A stretch of 20,263 bases of DNA, from positions 1 through 20,263 of IMG/VR virus record IMGVR_UViG_3300007346_000335; one strand, written 5' to 3'. Made by a program: the position numbers and the translations under genes. Shown piece after piece: positions 335 to 14,789 of this stretch. This stretch comes from a virus. The number at the start of each line of letters is the position of its first letter. Position 1 is the stretch's first letter. The notes beneath the pieces were generated by a model, which saw only the letters and a program-made list of their open reading frames with translations, did not search any database and was not told the origin of the DNA.

Positions 335-777
335 AAGTTGCGAACCGATCCGGTTGTGGGTAATGCGCCGACCAGCTTTCTGGTCAAAACCCGTGTTGGC
401 GCTTGCGTTCCAATCGCGTCAAGACTGCTTGACAAGACCAGCTCGATCGTTTCGGGGTCATAAGAAAAGCTGGAGACAAGCCAAGTCTCTGAGGTCAAAG
501 GACTTTGACCTAAGCGCTGATAAGTGCTGGGGTTCATTAACCAGTTCTCCACCGTAACGTTCGCAAAACCAGTGACCAGTTGATTGGCGATATTCATTGC
601 TAAGGTGTTGTTCGCCAAAACCAAAGCGGCTTGCAGGTTATCGCCGCTGCGGCTTTTGGTTGCACCTTGATAAATGAAAGACAAGTATGAATACCCGTTG
701 ACAGATGAGCCAACTTTGCCGTTTTGGTAGTCCCCGTAGGGAGTATCAACAAAGGTGGCGATGGCTTGGATTGACAT
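331..777 (-). CDS. Minor tail / tail-tip assembly protein
   Basis: 148 residues. The ATG at 777 overlaps the tape measure stop as TAATG, and its own TGA overlaps the next start as GTGA, so it sits tightly between two tail genes. The middle (VNGYSYLSFIYQGATKSRSG, then DNLQAALVLANNTLAM) resembles minor tail proteins of the DUF1833/lambda gpL kind, where a beta-rich domain follows a short lead and each protein is about 150-230 residues. The C-terminal stretch RVLTRKLVGALPTTGSVRN looks like the arginine-rich end of that group, but I see no cysteines that could bind a metal cluster as in lambda gpL. Position between tape measure and NlpC/P60-like peptidase supports a tail-tip role. The exact family is inferred. 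Confidence 0.6.
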   Translation of the reverse strand: MSIQAIATFVDTPYGDYQNGKVGSSVNGYSYLSFIYQGATKSRSGDNLQAALVLANNTLAMNIANQLVTGFANVTVENWLMNPSTYQRLGQSPLTSETWLVSSFSYDPETIELVLSSSLDAIGTQAPTRVLTRKLVGALPTTGSVRNL

Positions 778-3700
778 TAGACCCCAACGCGAGAACGGGT
801 TGACCTGCTGTTCTTCAGGCTACTCATGGTACGGTTGAAGCCGCCATCAGCGCCCTGCTTGGCTGCTTGGGAAATACCAGCGCGGAACTGGTCTTCCGTG
901 ACAAACTTCATGCCGTTGATTTCAGTGACGTTGTAGTTGACCGAGATCGAGCCACCGCGAGTGTTGCCGCTGCTGTAACGGTCCATTGCAGCTTGGCTGG
1001 CGCTGTTGTTGGTGACATACCCGCCGCTCGCGCTCATGGTTAAAAGTTCAGGACCACGCTCGCCCACGATGTAGCTTCTGCCAGGTTGAGCAAAGCCGCC
1101 ATCGGCAAAGCCCGGAAGTTTGAGTTGTGTTCCAGCGCCCGAAATTGCTGCTCTAATAAACATACGGCCCACGTCCTTTAATAGGCTGCTTGCAATCTCT
1201 TGAAGCGTCTCCTGTAGATCTTTTGCCCCAGTAACTGCAGCCTCGATTGTTCCTACCAGCGCGTCTTCTAAAGCGGTGCCCAAGCGCTTAAACACGTTTT
1301 TTTCTAGATCTTCAGAAATGGCTTTGATCTTTTTTATTTTTTCTTCTTCGTCCTTAAACCTTTGGCTCTCTTTGGCTGCTTCAGTCTGATCGGCAACTAT
1401 ACTTCCTTGTTTGCCCTTTAACTCAAGTAGTTTGTCAATAAGTTCTTTAAACTCTGGGTTGTTTAATGCCTCTAGTTGTTGTACTGTCTGGTCTATTACA
1501 TTTTCAACCCCAATACTTGCGGACGTAATTGCTGCCCTTTGTTTGGCTAATTCCGGGTTTACGCCGGACTTAAGCAACTCAATGTACTGCGCCGTTTCAC
1601 GGTTTCCTTCGTTTAATGAGTTTGTGATGTTAGCTTGTTTTGCTGCAGCAGTGCTAACTAAGCTTATGCCCTCAAGAGCAAGTTTCGCAGCCGCACTTTT
1701 TTCACTATTTTCTTGCGTCAATTGGCTTAAACGTTCGCGCCCTTTTTGGAGCACAGAGTTCAACGCGGTTTCTGCTGCGGATACCTCGTTTGCTTGAGGG
1801 GTAAGACTAGGCAAACCTCCCATGCCCTGAATACTGGGAGTTTGTGGCAATTTTGACATCAAATTTTGCAGACGAGATATTGTAACTTCAATACTTTGAA
1901 TTTCTGCCTGTAGCCCACCAATACGCGCTGCAGATTCTTGCTTAAAGGCTTCAGACGCAAAGGGACTACTCATAAGGGCTCTCTGCCCAGCTATTGACTG
2001 CTCAATCTGACCTTTGGCTGCTGTTTCCTGTGCAATCAGGCGCTTTACGGTAAGGTCGTAAGCATATTTGAATGATTCATTGCGCTGTTTGTCTAATCTA
2101 TTATTTACTTCGGCAATCTTTCGTGCGCTATCTTCGTTTATACGCGCCACGCGGCGGGCATTATCTTGCTTAAAGCGCTCCACAGCTAAAGCGGCTTCCT
2201 TAGCGTCAAGCTGAATTTTGGCCTCGGTCAGCTTTCTGTTTTCATCCGCTTCAATAATTCCGTTTTTGTACTGTGCTACTGCAGCCGTGAGTTGCGCAGC
2301 TATGCCTTCACGCCCAGGAGCAGCGGTAAAGCTAGCCTCTAACTGCCCAAGAGCAGCAGATACTTCCAGCCGCTCTCGCCGCTGATCTTGAATTAATTTA
2401 AGCTCTTTTTCCCTGAAATCTATAACTGCTTTCTCAGACTTTAATTGAGCGTCTTGAATACGCCTAATAGCGTTTATACGCTCATCTTCTATCTGACGCT
2501 CCAGCTTAATACGCATGTCTCTATAGGTTTTCGCTGTACTCTCGTTTATGTCATTAATTTTTTTAACGTTATTTTCTTGGGCTGTGATTATTTCGCGTTC
2601 GTTCTCAAGGCGCTCTTTGGTTAATTTCTCGTTTTGGAGCGTTCTAAACGCGCTTAAGGTTGCTTCAATACGAGCACGCTCTTCAGGAGTTCTACCACCG
2701 CCTAGCTCTTGTTGTTTATCTAAAACAGCCTCAACTGCTTGCCGTTCTTTTGCTCGGTAGTCCAAAAGTTGTTTAGATAGCTTAAAGTCAGTGTTACGCA
2801 GCTGCCCAGCAGACCGTAGTGCGTCGTTGTACTTTTGTTGCTCTTTGACTGTTCGAGTTAACGTTTCCGTTTCCTCATCAAGTAGGCGCTGTCTTTTTTC
2901 GTACTCTGCTGTTCCCTTCAAACTAGACTCAAATAAAGCATCGCCAAGAGCTTTTGCTCCAGGGATTAAGTTTATTAGCCCAGTAGCTGCGGTGATAACA
3001 GCGTTAAAAACAACTAAAATTGCTTGAACACCGCGTAAGATTGCGGTAATGGCTTGAGCGAAAGGCGCACCAATGATTCCAATTGTTGTCGCTGCGGCAG
3101 CTGATACACCCTCAAAAGCCTTCTGCAGTTCATTAGCGGAACCAGCAGCAAGTCGAGTTCCCTGACCACCTATATCCCCTGTCTGTAGGGCTACAGCTTG
3201 TTCAACACGTTGCTGGGCTGTTTGAGCAGCCCCGTAGCGATTCAATAAACGTACTTGTGCTTCGAGTTCAGCTGTTACATTGATCCCCGAATCGCGGAGA
3301 CCTTCCATATTGCTCGTCGCGTTCTGCAGCGCACTGCCAATATTGGCGGCCTTTTTGGATAAATCGTCAAAAACTCTGCCGATAACACTACCAATAAGGC
3401 TGCCGGCAAGACCTCCACCAATACCTCCTATACCAAGTCCACCGAGGCCGCCGCCGAGAACTTCTCCAGGGCCGCCGCCGAACAGGGCCGAAAAACCAAA
3501 ACCAGTTGCGGCGTCCCTAAATTTGCCAGTAAGCCCTCTAGCTTTATTTCTGTTTGAGCCAACGCCAGAACCGCCTCGTTGACCAAGTAGCTGAGCATCT
3601 TTGATTTTTTCGTTGATCTGTGCAATTTGGTCTTCGTACTTCCTAAAAGCTCCGGTGCCAATCGTTGTGGTTTCAAGAAGATTTTCAAGTTCCCTTCTGA

Positions 3701-4415
3701 TATTTCTAAGCCCTTTAAGGGTTGTCGCGTCGTCGATAAGTTTGCTGAAATCTGGCGGTAAGATATTTTGACCGGGACGGCGACCACCGCCACCGCCACC
3801 GCCACCGCCTCGACCACCACGACCACCGCCCGTAGGCGCGTCACCTCTTAAGGATTTAATAGTGTTGCCAAGACCTGTAAGCAAACGCTCAGTTTCAATA
3901 ACACGGACCTTGACTAAGTCCAAGCCGTCTAAAAGTTTTTGGAAAGGGTTTCCACCTTCAAGCCTCGGTCGAAATCCCGTGGGTGCATCTAAAAATTTGA
4001 TCCGTACGCTCTGAATTTCAAATAGTAAGTCCTTAACTTGATTTAGTTGTCGTACCAGCGGAGCAAAATTAACTCTACCTATCTCCCCAATGCCTAATGC
4101 AGCAAGAGCTGCACGGGAAGCCAGCTCCCCCACACCAACATTGGCAGCCTTAAGATAGGCGACCAATAACTGCACACTTTTAGGCAGTTTAGATAAAGTA
4201 GCGTTTTCTAGTCGCTCTAAAGACTTATATAGTCTTGTAGCTGCTCGTTCTGCCTCACTGACACCCTCTACCTTAAAGCGAACTTTATCGGCTGCTGCTT
4301 GAAGGCGATTCGCAGCCCTTTCTACGTTCTGTACTTTTTGCTGCAGGCGGTCAACTGCCTTATCGGCTGACGATGTATCCGCTAAAACACGTATTTTTGC
4401 ATCATAAGACGCCAT
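777..4415 (-). CDS. Tail tape measure protein
   Basis: 1212 residues, the longest gene here and directly after the tail chaperone genes, as expected. It sets tail length and is packed inside the tube until infection. Seen in the sequence: a charged heptad-rich N-terminus; a glycine/arginine run at about residues 190-213; a glycine-rich hydrophobic stretch at about 308-352 and a second hydrophobic stretch at about 436-492, both possible membrane-insertion segments; long Lys/Glu/Arg-rich coiled coil at about 520-1060. The C-terminal signature (FADGGFAQPGRSY, then VGERGPELL) at about 1100-1123 is typical of phage tape measures. No lysozyme or peptidase motif was noticed. The ATG at 4415 lies 31 bases after the stop of the frameshifted chaperone extension. 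Confidence 0.95.
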   Translation of the reverse strand: MASYDAKIRVLADTSSADKAVDRLQQKVQNVERAANRLQAAADKVRFKVEGVSEAERAATRLYKSLERLENATLSKLPKSVQLLVAYLKAANVGVGELASRAALAALGIGEIGRVNFAPLVRQLNQVKDLLFEIQSVRIKFLDAPTGFRPRLEGGNPFQKLLDGLDLVKVRVIETERLLTGLGNTIKSLRGDAPTGGGRGGRGGGGGGGGGRRPGQNILPPDFSKLIDDATTLKGLRNIRRELENLLETTTIGTGAFRKYEDQIAQINEKIKDAQLLGQRGGSGVGSNRNKARGLTGKFRDAATGFGFSALFGGGPGEVLGGGLGGLGIGGIGGGLAGSLIGSVIGRVFDDLSKKAANIGSALQNATSNMEGLRDSGINVTAELEAQVRLLNRYGAAQTAQQRVEQAVALQTGDIGGQGTRLAAGSANELQKAFEGVSAAAATTIGIIGAPFAQAITAILRGVQAILVVFNAVITAATGLINLIPGAKALGDALFESSLKGTAEYEKRQRLLDEETETLTRTVKEQQKYNDALRSAGQLRNTDFKLSKQLLDYRAKERQAVEAVLDKQQELGGGRTPEERARIEATLSAFRTLQNEKLTKERLENEREIITAQENNVKKINDINESTAKTYRDMRIKLERQIEDERINAIRRIQDAQLKSEKAVIDFREKELKLIQDQRRERLEVSAALGQLEASFTAAPGREGIAAQLTAAVAQYKNGIIEADENRKLTEAKIQLDAKEAALAVERFKQDNARRVARINEDSARKIAEVNNRLDKQRNESFKYAYDLTVKRLIAQETAAKGQIEQSIAGQRALMSSPFASEAFKQESAARIGGLQAEIQSIEVTISRLQNLMSKLPQTPSIQGMGGLPSLTPQANEVSAAETALNSVLQKGRERLSQLTQENSEKSAAAKLALEGISLVSTAAAKQANITNSLNEGNRETAQYIELLKSGVNPELAKQRAAITSASIGVENVIDQTVQQLEALNNPEFKELIDKLLELKGKQGSIVADQTEAAKESQRFKDEEEKIKKIKAISEDLEKNVFKRLGTALEDALVGTIEAAVTGAKDLQETLQEIASSLLKDVGRMFIRAAISGAGTQLKLPGFADGGFAQPGRSYIVGERGPELLTMSASGGYVTNNSASQAAMDRYSSGNTRGGSISVNYNVTEINGMKFVTEDQFRAGISQAAKQGADGGFNRTMSSLKNSRSTRSRVGV

Positions 4416-4446: not shown

Positions 4447-4976
4447 CTAGCGTCTACGGCGAGCGCTTTCTAAAGCCGTCTCTCTGTCTTCGTTGAGAAT
4501 CTGGAAGTAGGCGCTCCAGCCAACGAGTTCTTCTGGCGTCATTGTGGTGCGGACTTCGGACAAGCTCATGCCCAGTTCCTTGGCAACGCCGAACTGCAGC
4601 ATGAGCCAGTTGTCCCTGCGAAGATCCGCTACTAGGCTTTTGGGTCCATCGGCTCGTCTTCGCCGTCGTCCAGGATTGCCAGCATTAAAGACTGCAGGTC
4701 TTTGTCCTTGACCTCGTTCTTAAGTACATCAACCTCTCCAGGTGAAAACAGCTTTTTGCCGCTTTCGTCTTTTGCCTTGCTGATCAACAGCTGAAGTGCG
4801 AATGCAGAGGCGTCGTCTGATTTGGCTTGCTTTTGGGCGCGTTCGCGCTCAGCCATAGTCAGCGGGCTGACGTACATTTCAAACACGCTGCCGTCAGAAA
4901 GCTCTACTTCGCGCTTGCTGGGCTCAAGATTTGCGGCCTTGCGAAGGCGATCGATGGCGCGGGTAGGAACCGGCAT
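4447..4976 (-). CDS. Frameshifted tail assembly chaperone (gpGT-type fusion)
   Basis: The product of an inferred -1 ribosomal frameshift. Translation starts at 4976, follows the 114-codon chaperone frame through Lys113, slips at C CCA AAA (4644 to 4638), and continues in the -1 frame to a TAG at 4447-4449. This adds 63 residues and gives about 176 in total. The added part includes FGVAKELGMSLSEVRTTMTP and EELVGWSAYFQIL, which is what the T domain of siphovirus chaperones usually looks like. Lambda gpG/gpGT is the model: the short form coats the tape measure and the T extension recruits tail tube subunits. Placement just before the tape measure fits. The slip is inferred from sequence, not measured. 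Confidence 0.85.
4632..4976 (-). CDS. Tail assembly chaperone, short form (gpG-like)
   Basis: 114 residues from ATG 4976 to TAG 4632-4634. The protein is highly charged and mostly helical by eye. It starts with PVPTRAIDRLRKAA, has a beta-like segment REVELSDGSVFEMYVSPLT at about residues 22-40, and ends in an acidic tail (DDGEDEPMDPKA). This shape, its size and its location between the major tail gene and tape measure match the non-frameshifted chaperone of long-tailed phages, which binds the tape measure until the tail tube polymerises. The slippery heptamer lies in the last codons, so most ribosomes should stop here and make the short form. No Shine-Dalgarno sequence is obvious. Confidence 0.85.
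   Translation of the reverse strand: MPVPTRAIDRLRKAANLEPSKREVELSDGSVFEMYVSPLTMAERERAQKQAKSDDASAFALQLLISKAKDESGKKLFSPGEVDVLKNEVKDKDLQSLMLAILDDGEDEPMDPKA
4638..4644 (-). promoter_or_regulatory. Slippery heptamer for -1 frameshift, C CCA AAA
   Basis: Minus-strand CCCAAAA, read as gaC CCA AAA in the chaperone frame, fits the X XXY YYZ rule for tandem slippage. It lies two codons before the TAG of the short form. After a -1 slip the frame is open for 63 codons with a T-like protein sequence. No strong stimulatory hairpin was picked out downstream by eye. Confidence 0.8.
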
Positions 4977-5013
4977 GACAAGTAGTGGTGTATGAATCTA
5001 CTGTAGCGCTGAA

Positions 5014-5040
5014 CAATAAAAAGCCCCACCGTAGTGGGGC
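5014..5040 (-). terminator. Intrinsic terminator after the major tail gene
   Basis: On the minus strand GCCCCAC, a four-base loop TACG, then GTGGGGC (5040 to 5023) form a 7-bp GC-rich stem followed by TTTTTATTG. It starts 27 bases after the major tail stop. A nearly identical element follows the capsid gene (7878-7905). Confidence 0.85.
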
Positions 5041-5066: not shown

Positions 5067-5840
5067 TCAGGCAGTGGTGCTGAAGTCGAAGACCGGGGCG
5101 GTCGATGGGCGGAAGTTCACGGTAACGGACTGTGCATCATCGGGGTTGATTGCCAGATTCGCAGAAGTCAACACTGCATCGAAAGTGATGGAGCGACTCA
5201 GAGTCTCGCTAACCGAACCACCGCTGAAAACACGGTCGATATACAGGCGGAAAGCAGCACCGTTTTGCTGGCGCTGCAGCACGTCCTCAATAACGCGGTT
5301 GCCCATGTCCGAATCTTCGTTGGTGAAGTAGAACGTGGCGGAACCTGTACCATCGCCAAAACCGGCGATGAAGGTGCGGAATGGCACGTACTGTTGAGAG
5401 GTCTGGCCGATCGTGGTGACATCGATTTCGGCGCGTGTCATCTCAAATGACCAGTCCCGAACTTGACCCACAGACACAAAGGCGTCGTATGCAACCTGGA
5501 ATTTGTTCGGAGAGCTGAGCGTGCCAGCGTCGGTGATGCTTACTGCAGAACCGCCATCAGTGGCAGACACTTGCATGTCCCCAGTAGAGGCTGTGTAGGT
5601 AATAACGTAGTAAGTAGTTGCGGTGCTCAGACCTGCGGGCAGTGTACCGCTGCCGGATCCGCCGGTCGTGGTGTTTACCACGCTAAATTGGACGGGATCA
5701 CCAACACGGAAACCCAAGTAGGTTCCAACAGTAAGCGTGTCAGTTCCGGTGGTAACATCGGCGGTGCCGAAAGTAGCAGTCGTACCAGCGGGCTTGTAAT
5801 ACAGGGCACCTGAAGTGCCGGACAGAACGGTGGTGGCCAT
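5067..5840 (-). CDS. Major tail (tube) protein with inserted beta domain
   Basis: 257 residues from the ATG at 5840. The frame also extends four codons upstream to a TTG at 5852, which I consider less likely. No clear Shine-Dalgarno precedes either start. The C-terminal two thirds (SVGQVRDWSFEMTRAEIDVT, then RTFIAGFGDGTGSATFYFT) resemble tail tube proteins that stack as hexameric rings. Residues about 28-108 look like a separate insertion: the pattern TLPAGLSTATTYYVITYTAS followed by MQVSATDGGSAVSITDAGT is the kind of short Thr/Ser-rich beta repeat found decorating other phage structural proteins. A strong terminator follows, as expected for an abundant product. The tube call is strong; the insertion's function is unknown. 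Confidence 0.85.
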   Translation of the reverse strand: MATTVLSGTSGALYYKPAGTTATFGTADVTTGTDTLTVGTYLGFRVGDPVQFSVVNTTTGGSGSGTLPAGLSTATTYYVITYTASTGDMQVSATDGGSAVSITDAGTLSSPNKFQVAYDAFVSVGQVRDWSFEMTRAEIDVTTIGQTSQQYVPFRTFIAGFGDGTGSATFYFTNEDSDMGNRVIEDVLQRQQNGAAFRLYIDRVFSGGSVSETLSRSITFDAVLTSANLAINPDDAQSVTVNFRPSTAPVFDFSTTA

Positions 5841-5868
5841 TGGGCGTACCAAAGAATGAAGGTTTCTG

Positions 5869-14475: not shown

Positions 14476-14561
14476 CTCCCCCCTGGTCGGGGACTTGGTA
14501 AGTGCTACACTAACAGTGTCGGAAGGGAGAGGTTTAGGCCATCAAACTACCGACTAAACAG

Positions 14562-14755: not shown

Positions 14756-14789
14756 TTTAGTGCAAACCACACCCAAAGGTCACTCAATC

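Follow-up and report, generated by a model that had tools for sequence, protein, structure and literature searches.

The window analysed here is a stretch of 20,263 nucleotides of viral DNA (positions 1 to 20,263 of the IMG/VR record IMGVR_UViG_3300007346_000335). Its minus strand follows the usual siphovirus head-to-tail order, with genes for terminase, portal, scaffold, major capsid protein, adaptor, head closure, tail terminator, a probable major tail protein, a 114-codon G protein and a tape measure protein. The major capsid protein shares 72% identity with its counterpart in the single-cell marine virus AG-345-A17; the host is likely a cyanobacterium. No Rfam family match and no tRNA was found in the window. 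The features considered below, together with the evidence on which each assignment is based, are as follows.

5067..5852, minus strand: probable major tail protein gene, upstream of G (weak match to phrog_158, major tail protein, E 0.08; gene order)
5023..5040, minus strand: hairpin resembling an intrinsic terminator, placed between G and the major tail protein gene
4998..5007, minus strand: GCTACAGTAG, putative -10-like promoter motif, right after the terminator and about 30 nt before the G start
4447..4976, minus strand: whole GT coding region, predicted fusion of 176 aa (113 + 63) (sequence, relatives, coding constraint)
4632..4976, minus strand: G-like tail assembly chaperone, zero-frame product of 114 aa (phrog_344, Pfam Phage_TAC_13 below cut-off, 2ob9 fold)
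4638..4644, minus strand: -1 slippery heptamer C_CCA_AAA, two codons before the G stop (read in the sequence; conserved in relatives)
4447..4638, minus strand: T-like extension in the -1 frame, 63 codons plus TAG (pN/pS, AlphaFold model, tail PHROGs 337 and 14766)
777..4415, minus strand: probable tape measure protein gene, 1212 aa (position and length)

The G gene follows the major tail protein gene and immediately precedes the tape measure gene, both of which were assigned by position, length and weak profiles. The tape measure gene starts at 4415, 31 bases past the T stop, and the Pfam family Tape_meas_lam_C was matched weakly near the C-terminus of its product (E 0.028). The same gene order is found in the record of cyanophage S-2L, where it is annotated as major tail protein, chaperone and tape measure.

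The G reading frame extends from ATG at 4976 to TAG at 4634-4632 and ends with the codons GAC CCA AAA GCC TAG. Its product matched phrog_344, a tail assembly chaperone family (E 1.8e-5), and, under the cut-off, Pfam Phage_TAC_13 (E 0.006). G and T were modelled separately, and the alignments were composed of the window and viral_contigs loci only. The AlphaFold-type model of G is of moderate to low confidence (pLDDT 65.5). Its best PDB fold, and thus the closest solved structure to this model, is the HK97 tail assembly chaperone 2ob9 (Foldseek probability 1.00, E 1.6e-3; 15% identity, TM about 0.5), followed by YqbN (3klu); a PDB sequence search by the G profile gave no meaningful match. By sequence or by modelled fold, the G part thus appears to be homologous to known tail assembly chaperones.

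A preliminary description of this DNA placed the end of the chaperone frame at 4632 and a slippery heptamer at 4644-4638, two codons ahead of the stop. Reading of the minus strand agrees with this, and the phase of the heptamer is correct. In-phase heptamers of the XXXYYYZ type occur 23 times in the 4,216 codons of the 14 window genes, and C_CCA_AAA at 4644-4638 is the only one located within 200 nt of the stop of its gene. In the first set of relatives, CCCAAA followed by A, G or C is present in phase at 150 of the 158 G-bearing loci among the matches listed, and its distance to the end of the G stop codon is exactly 13 nt in nearly all of them. Alignment of the site in related phages, suggested in the preliminary description, revealed that GAC CCA AA is invariant across 139 aligned relatives, against a background use in the same G genes of 27% of proline codons for CCA and 71% of aspartate codons for GAC. 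The seventh base of the heptamer varies among A, G and C in these relatives, AAC replacing lysine by asparagine in G with XXXYYY being kept. Such a pattern is what selection on the slip site would predict; the relatives share ancestry, hence it is reported here without a probability.

The -1 frame, read as CCC AAA AGC CTA GTA ... CGC TAG, was confirmed to be open for 63 codons down to 4447, with its TAG at 4449-4447. Beyond the two slipped codons, the 63 codons of the extension span 4638-4450, and their translation contains both of the peptides previously quoted from it. Since long open -1 frames are common in the window (at least 60 codons past the stop in 6 of the 14 genes), openness proves nothing alone and conservation, which is strong, carries the case. 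When 150 distinct ungapped extensions were analysed, the T (-1) frame had a pN/pS of 0.25, against 1.24 for the G frame continued beyond its stop and 3.1 for the third frame. Judging from this constraint, the -1 extension appears to be conserved as a protein without a start codon of its own.

The first ATG, GTG or TTG in the T frame is indeed remote from the beginning of the extension, as had been pointed out: it is an ATG at 4602, 12 codons in, and GCAGGGA is present slightly more than 10 bases upstream of it. T might therefore be a separate small protein, translated from this ATG or a later one with no frameshift. Yet purifying selection for the T frame already acts on the codons that follow the slip site and precede the first internal start (pN/pS 0.30), which argues that ribosomes enter this frame through the heptamer rather than at an internal start. 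Moreover, the T reading begins exactly at the invariant slippery heptamer, and in the relatives using a +1 frame (see below) the conserved reading begins right at AAA_AGY. Independent initiation of T is accordingly very improbable. Slippage of the polymerase at the C/A run during transcription would yield the same protein outcome as slippage of the ribosome, but the run is merely C3A4, its seventh base is often G or C, and transcriptional slippage has been described for longer homopolymers, namely A runs over 7 and T runs over 8 (PMC3711429); this origin of the extension seems even less probable than an internal start.

The extension is modelled with confidence as four helices (AlphaFold, mean pLDDT 90). 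Comparison with T-domain profiles, another step proposed in the preliminary description, gave a modest match to the tail PHROGs 337 and 14766 (E 2e-4), and Pfam gave no credible T match. A PDB sequence search by the T profile returned no meaningful match, and the fold of the T model weakly resembles the tail assembly chaperone of phage RcRhea (E 0.24). D6PII1, a viral protein of 179 residues, was matched by the G model and also by the T model, as would be the case for a natural in-frame G-T fusion. No direct sequence match of G or T to the lambda proteins was found, and the T label is supported by position and by the tail-family matches. Sequencing or assembly errors can split chaperone genes and D6PII1 resembles an in-frame fusion, but the idea that G and T are truly one gene, broken by an indel or by decay, is already refuted, as far as genomes can tell, by the recurrence of the split with a stop just past the site in isolated phages as well as in over 140 distinct contigs, which come from many metagenomes, and by the finding of an in-frame G-T fusion at none of 222 G+T loci.

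Taken together, the relatives, profiles, fold and gene order support the earlier proposal of a gpG/gpGT-type chaperone made by a -1 shift. The window phage is thus best described, with a probability of about 0.94, as a siphovirus distantly related to cyanophages and carrying a lambda-type G/GT chaperone gene with a -1 slip, from which G and a rarer GT would be produced. What is directly available for this phage is its sequence, the evolutionary constraint acting on it, and the fold and family matches.

According to this reading, most ribosomes would terminate at the TAG at 4634-4632 and release the 114-aa G, and a minority would slip one base back on C_CCA_AAA to synthesize the 176-aa GT, tRNA-Pro re-pairing from CCA to CCC and tRNA-Lys from AAA to AAA. 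The analogy with lambda suggests that G would bind the tape measure protein and that GT, the less abundant product, would recruit the major tail protein through its T domain. The slip, its efficiency and the division of roles between G and GT are what we infer. The lambda heptamer is G_GGA_AAG, and the window differs from lambda in having C_CCA_AAA and a stop only two codons past the slip. Both share a short chaperone gene flanked by the major tail protein and tape measure genes, a -1 heptamer near the end of that gene, and a second domain encoded in the -1 frame without a start (PMC5009743 and general knowledge). In lambda itself, the tape measure protein is the partner of G and the major tail protein that of the T part of GT, the scarcer form, the G:GT ratio being 30:1 (PMC5009743). 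G/GT frameshifting is widely conserved in long-tailed phages (PMC5009743; PMC8211752), in agreement with the preliminary description, which presented the principle as well known in this group.

No conserved stimulatory RNA structure was detected past the heptamer by RNAalifold, which covers nested structures only and proposed five scattered pairs with no compensatory changes; in the window itself, the hairpin downstream of the heptamer is not clearly better than in shuffled sequence (z -1.0). A low slip rate without a strong stimulator is plausible, because the stop lies two codons past the site and C_CCA_AAG is highly shift-prone in E. coli (PMC5009743).

Scans with G and with the extension showed that the G/T family is common among viral contigs. 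Named relatives include the cyanophages KBS-S-2A, S-2L and S-H1 and the single-cell marine virus AG-345-A17, to which the search with T added the Prochlorococcus phages MED4-184 and MED4-117 and the Nitrincola phage 1M3-16. The collection of bacterial and archaeal genomes gave a sole match (L287, 3001-3324), on a 12-kb contig binned as an uncultured gammaproteobacterium and possibly a phage contig. KBS-S-2A and S-2L have homologous G and T, the same gene order and the same -1 layout as the window. They are more distant relatives and have another heptamer, C_CCA_AAG in S-2L and A_AAA_AAC in KBS-S-2A, the latter being also found with the -1 layout in the likewise more distant S-H1 and Nitrincola phage 1M3-16. 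The records of KBS-S-2A and S-2L carry no T frameshift annotation; indeed, T is annotated as a frameshift product in none of the related phage records examined, and no paper on a G/T frameshift in cyanophages was found in the literature searched.

Loss of the heptamer together with a broken extension, which the preliminary description had named as evidence against a programmed shift, was not encountered among the relatives: loci with C_CCC_AAG, A_AAA_AAN or AAA_AGY keep the extension intact. A_AAA_AAC or A_AAA_AAA takes the place of the heptamer in a small metagenome group (L239-L244). A pattern search for GAY CCC AAG AAY TAG found 40 contigs, a count that, like that of the +1 loci below, comes from targeted searches and is uninformative on natural frequency. 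C_CCC_AAG occupies the exact position of the heptamer (L247-L286, L017, L028, L057 and L058), and T is kept in the -1 frame at 28 distinct loci of this type, with a T pN/pS of 0.15 among them. This site is not of the XXXYYYZ type, because tRNA-Lys would need to pair with CAA, and the simplest reading is that tRNA-Pro alone slips from CCC to CCC. At the MED4-184 locus (L164, 1489-1504), T is also in the -1 frame; the overlap GCA AAG GAA TCC TAA is without a heptamer and includes only an A_AAG-like tetramer.

Other members of the family have T in the +1 frame. This arrangement is represented by 40 distinct T sequences among L162 (AG-345-A17) and L167-L246, all with an invariant AAA_AGC or AAA_AGT. 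The codon preceding AAA_AGY is mostly ATG, with CCC in four cases and TTG in one, and the conserved T protein starts at once. These sites are accounted for if tRNA-Lys slips by +1, from AAA to AAA. A -2 shift was considered and rejected, as re-pairing at ATG_AAA_AGY would place tRNA-Lys on TGA. Like the window, the +1 relatives, with T at AAA_AGY, and the haloarchaeal phage HSTV-2 have a G/T chaperone with T out of frame, and for HSTV-2 the shift is very likely +1 according to a review (PMC5009743). Shifts of both signs were reported by PRFect in actinobacteriophage data, where many sites are not XXXYYYZ (PMC10885494).

On a tree of G, the site types cluster without forming simple clades, the alignment being short and many forks unresolved. 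The contig designated L167 or L038, which has T in +1, falls among -1 sequences with C_CCA_AAG. When it was compared with L018, L043, L045 and L169, positions 1-1291 were found to be 96-97% identical to -1 members, and L043, which belongs to that lineage, matches positions 2179-2291 at 97% identity. The intervening part (1292-2178) resembles L168/L169; besides ATG_AAA_AGT and a T in the +1 frame, it has an HNH endonuclease gene on the minus strand. Since both flanks come from one lineage, L038 is not a simple two-way chimera, though this is a single contig; its mosaic looks like a cassette exchange that would have changed the direction of frameshifting from -1 to +1. More generally, the chances seem evenly balanced that this is one lineage with a switchable sign, in which the site and T form an exchangeable cassette, sometimes beside an HNH gene; L038 would then have passed from C_CCA_AAG to AAA_AGY, and the C_CCC_AAG clade would have stayed at -1, presumably through slippage of tRNA-Pro alone, in the P site.

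As regards the window phage, this is an ordinary new case of the known lambda mechanism and mainly a point of annotation: as anticipated in the preliminary description, ordinary ORF calling would miss the 63-codon T domain, there being no start near the beginning of the extension. The switching of shift direction within a family is the part worth following. Hundreds of natural site variants (C_CCA_AAA/G/C, C_CCC_AAG, A_AAA_AAN and the +1 site AAA_AGY) are joined to homologous proteins, and this series lets one ask which variants yield the G:GT ratio that is required and whether it matters at all in which direction the ribosome slips.

Upstream of G, the terminator-like hairpin and the motif that follows it may constitute a terminator-promoter unit separating expression of the major tail protein from that of the chaperone. 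A terminator-like hairpin followed within about 20 bases by GCTAYAGTA is found on the minus strand at 5040-4998, at 18303-18263 and at about 18430-18386. Many relatives have a GCTAYAGTA-type motif about 30 nt upstream of G; among 189 distinct upstream regions, 47 have GCTACAGTA exactly. A plus-strand copy, GCTACACTA, is located at 14504-14512, past a C-rich and then a G-rich stretch and upstream of small plus-strand ORFs that begin at 14760.
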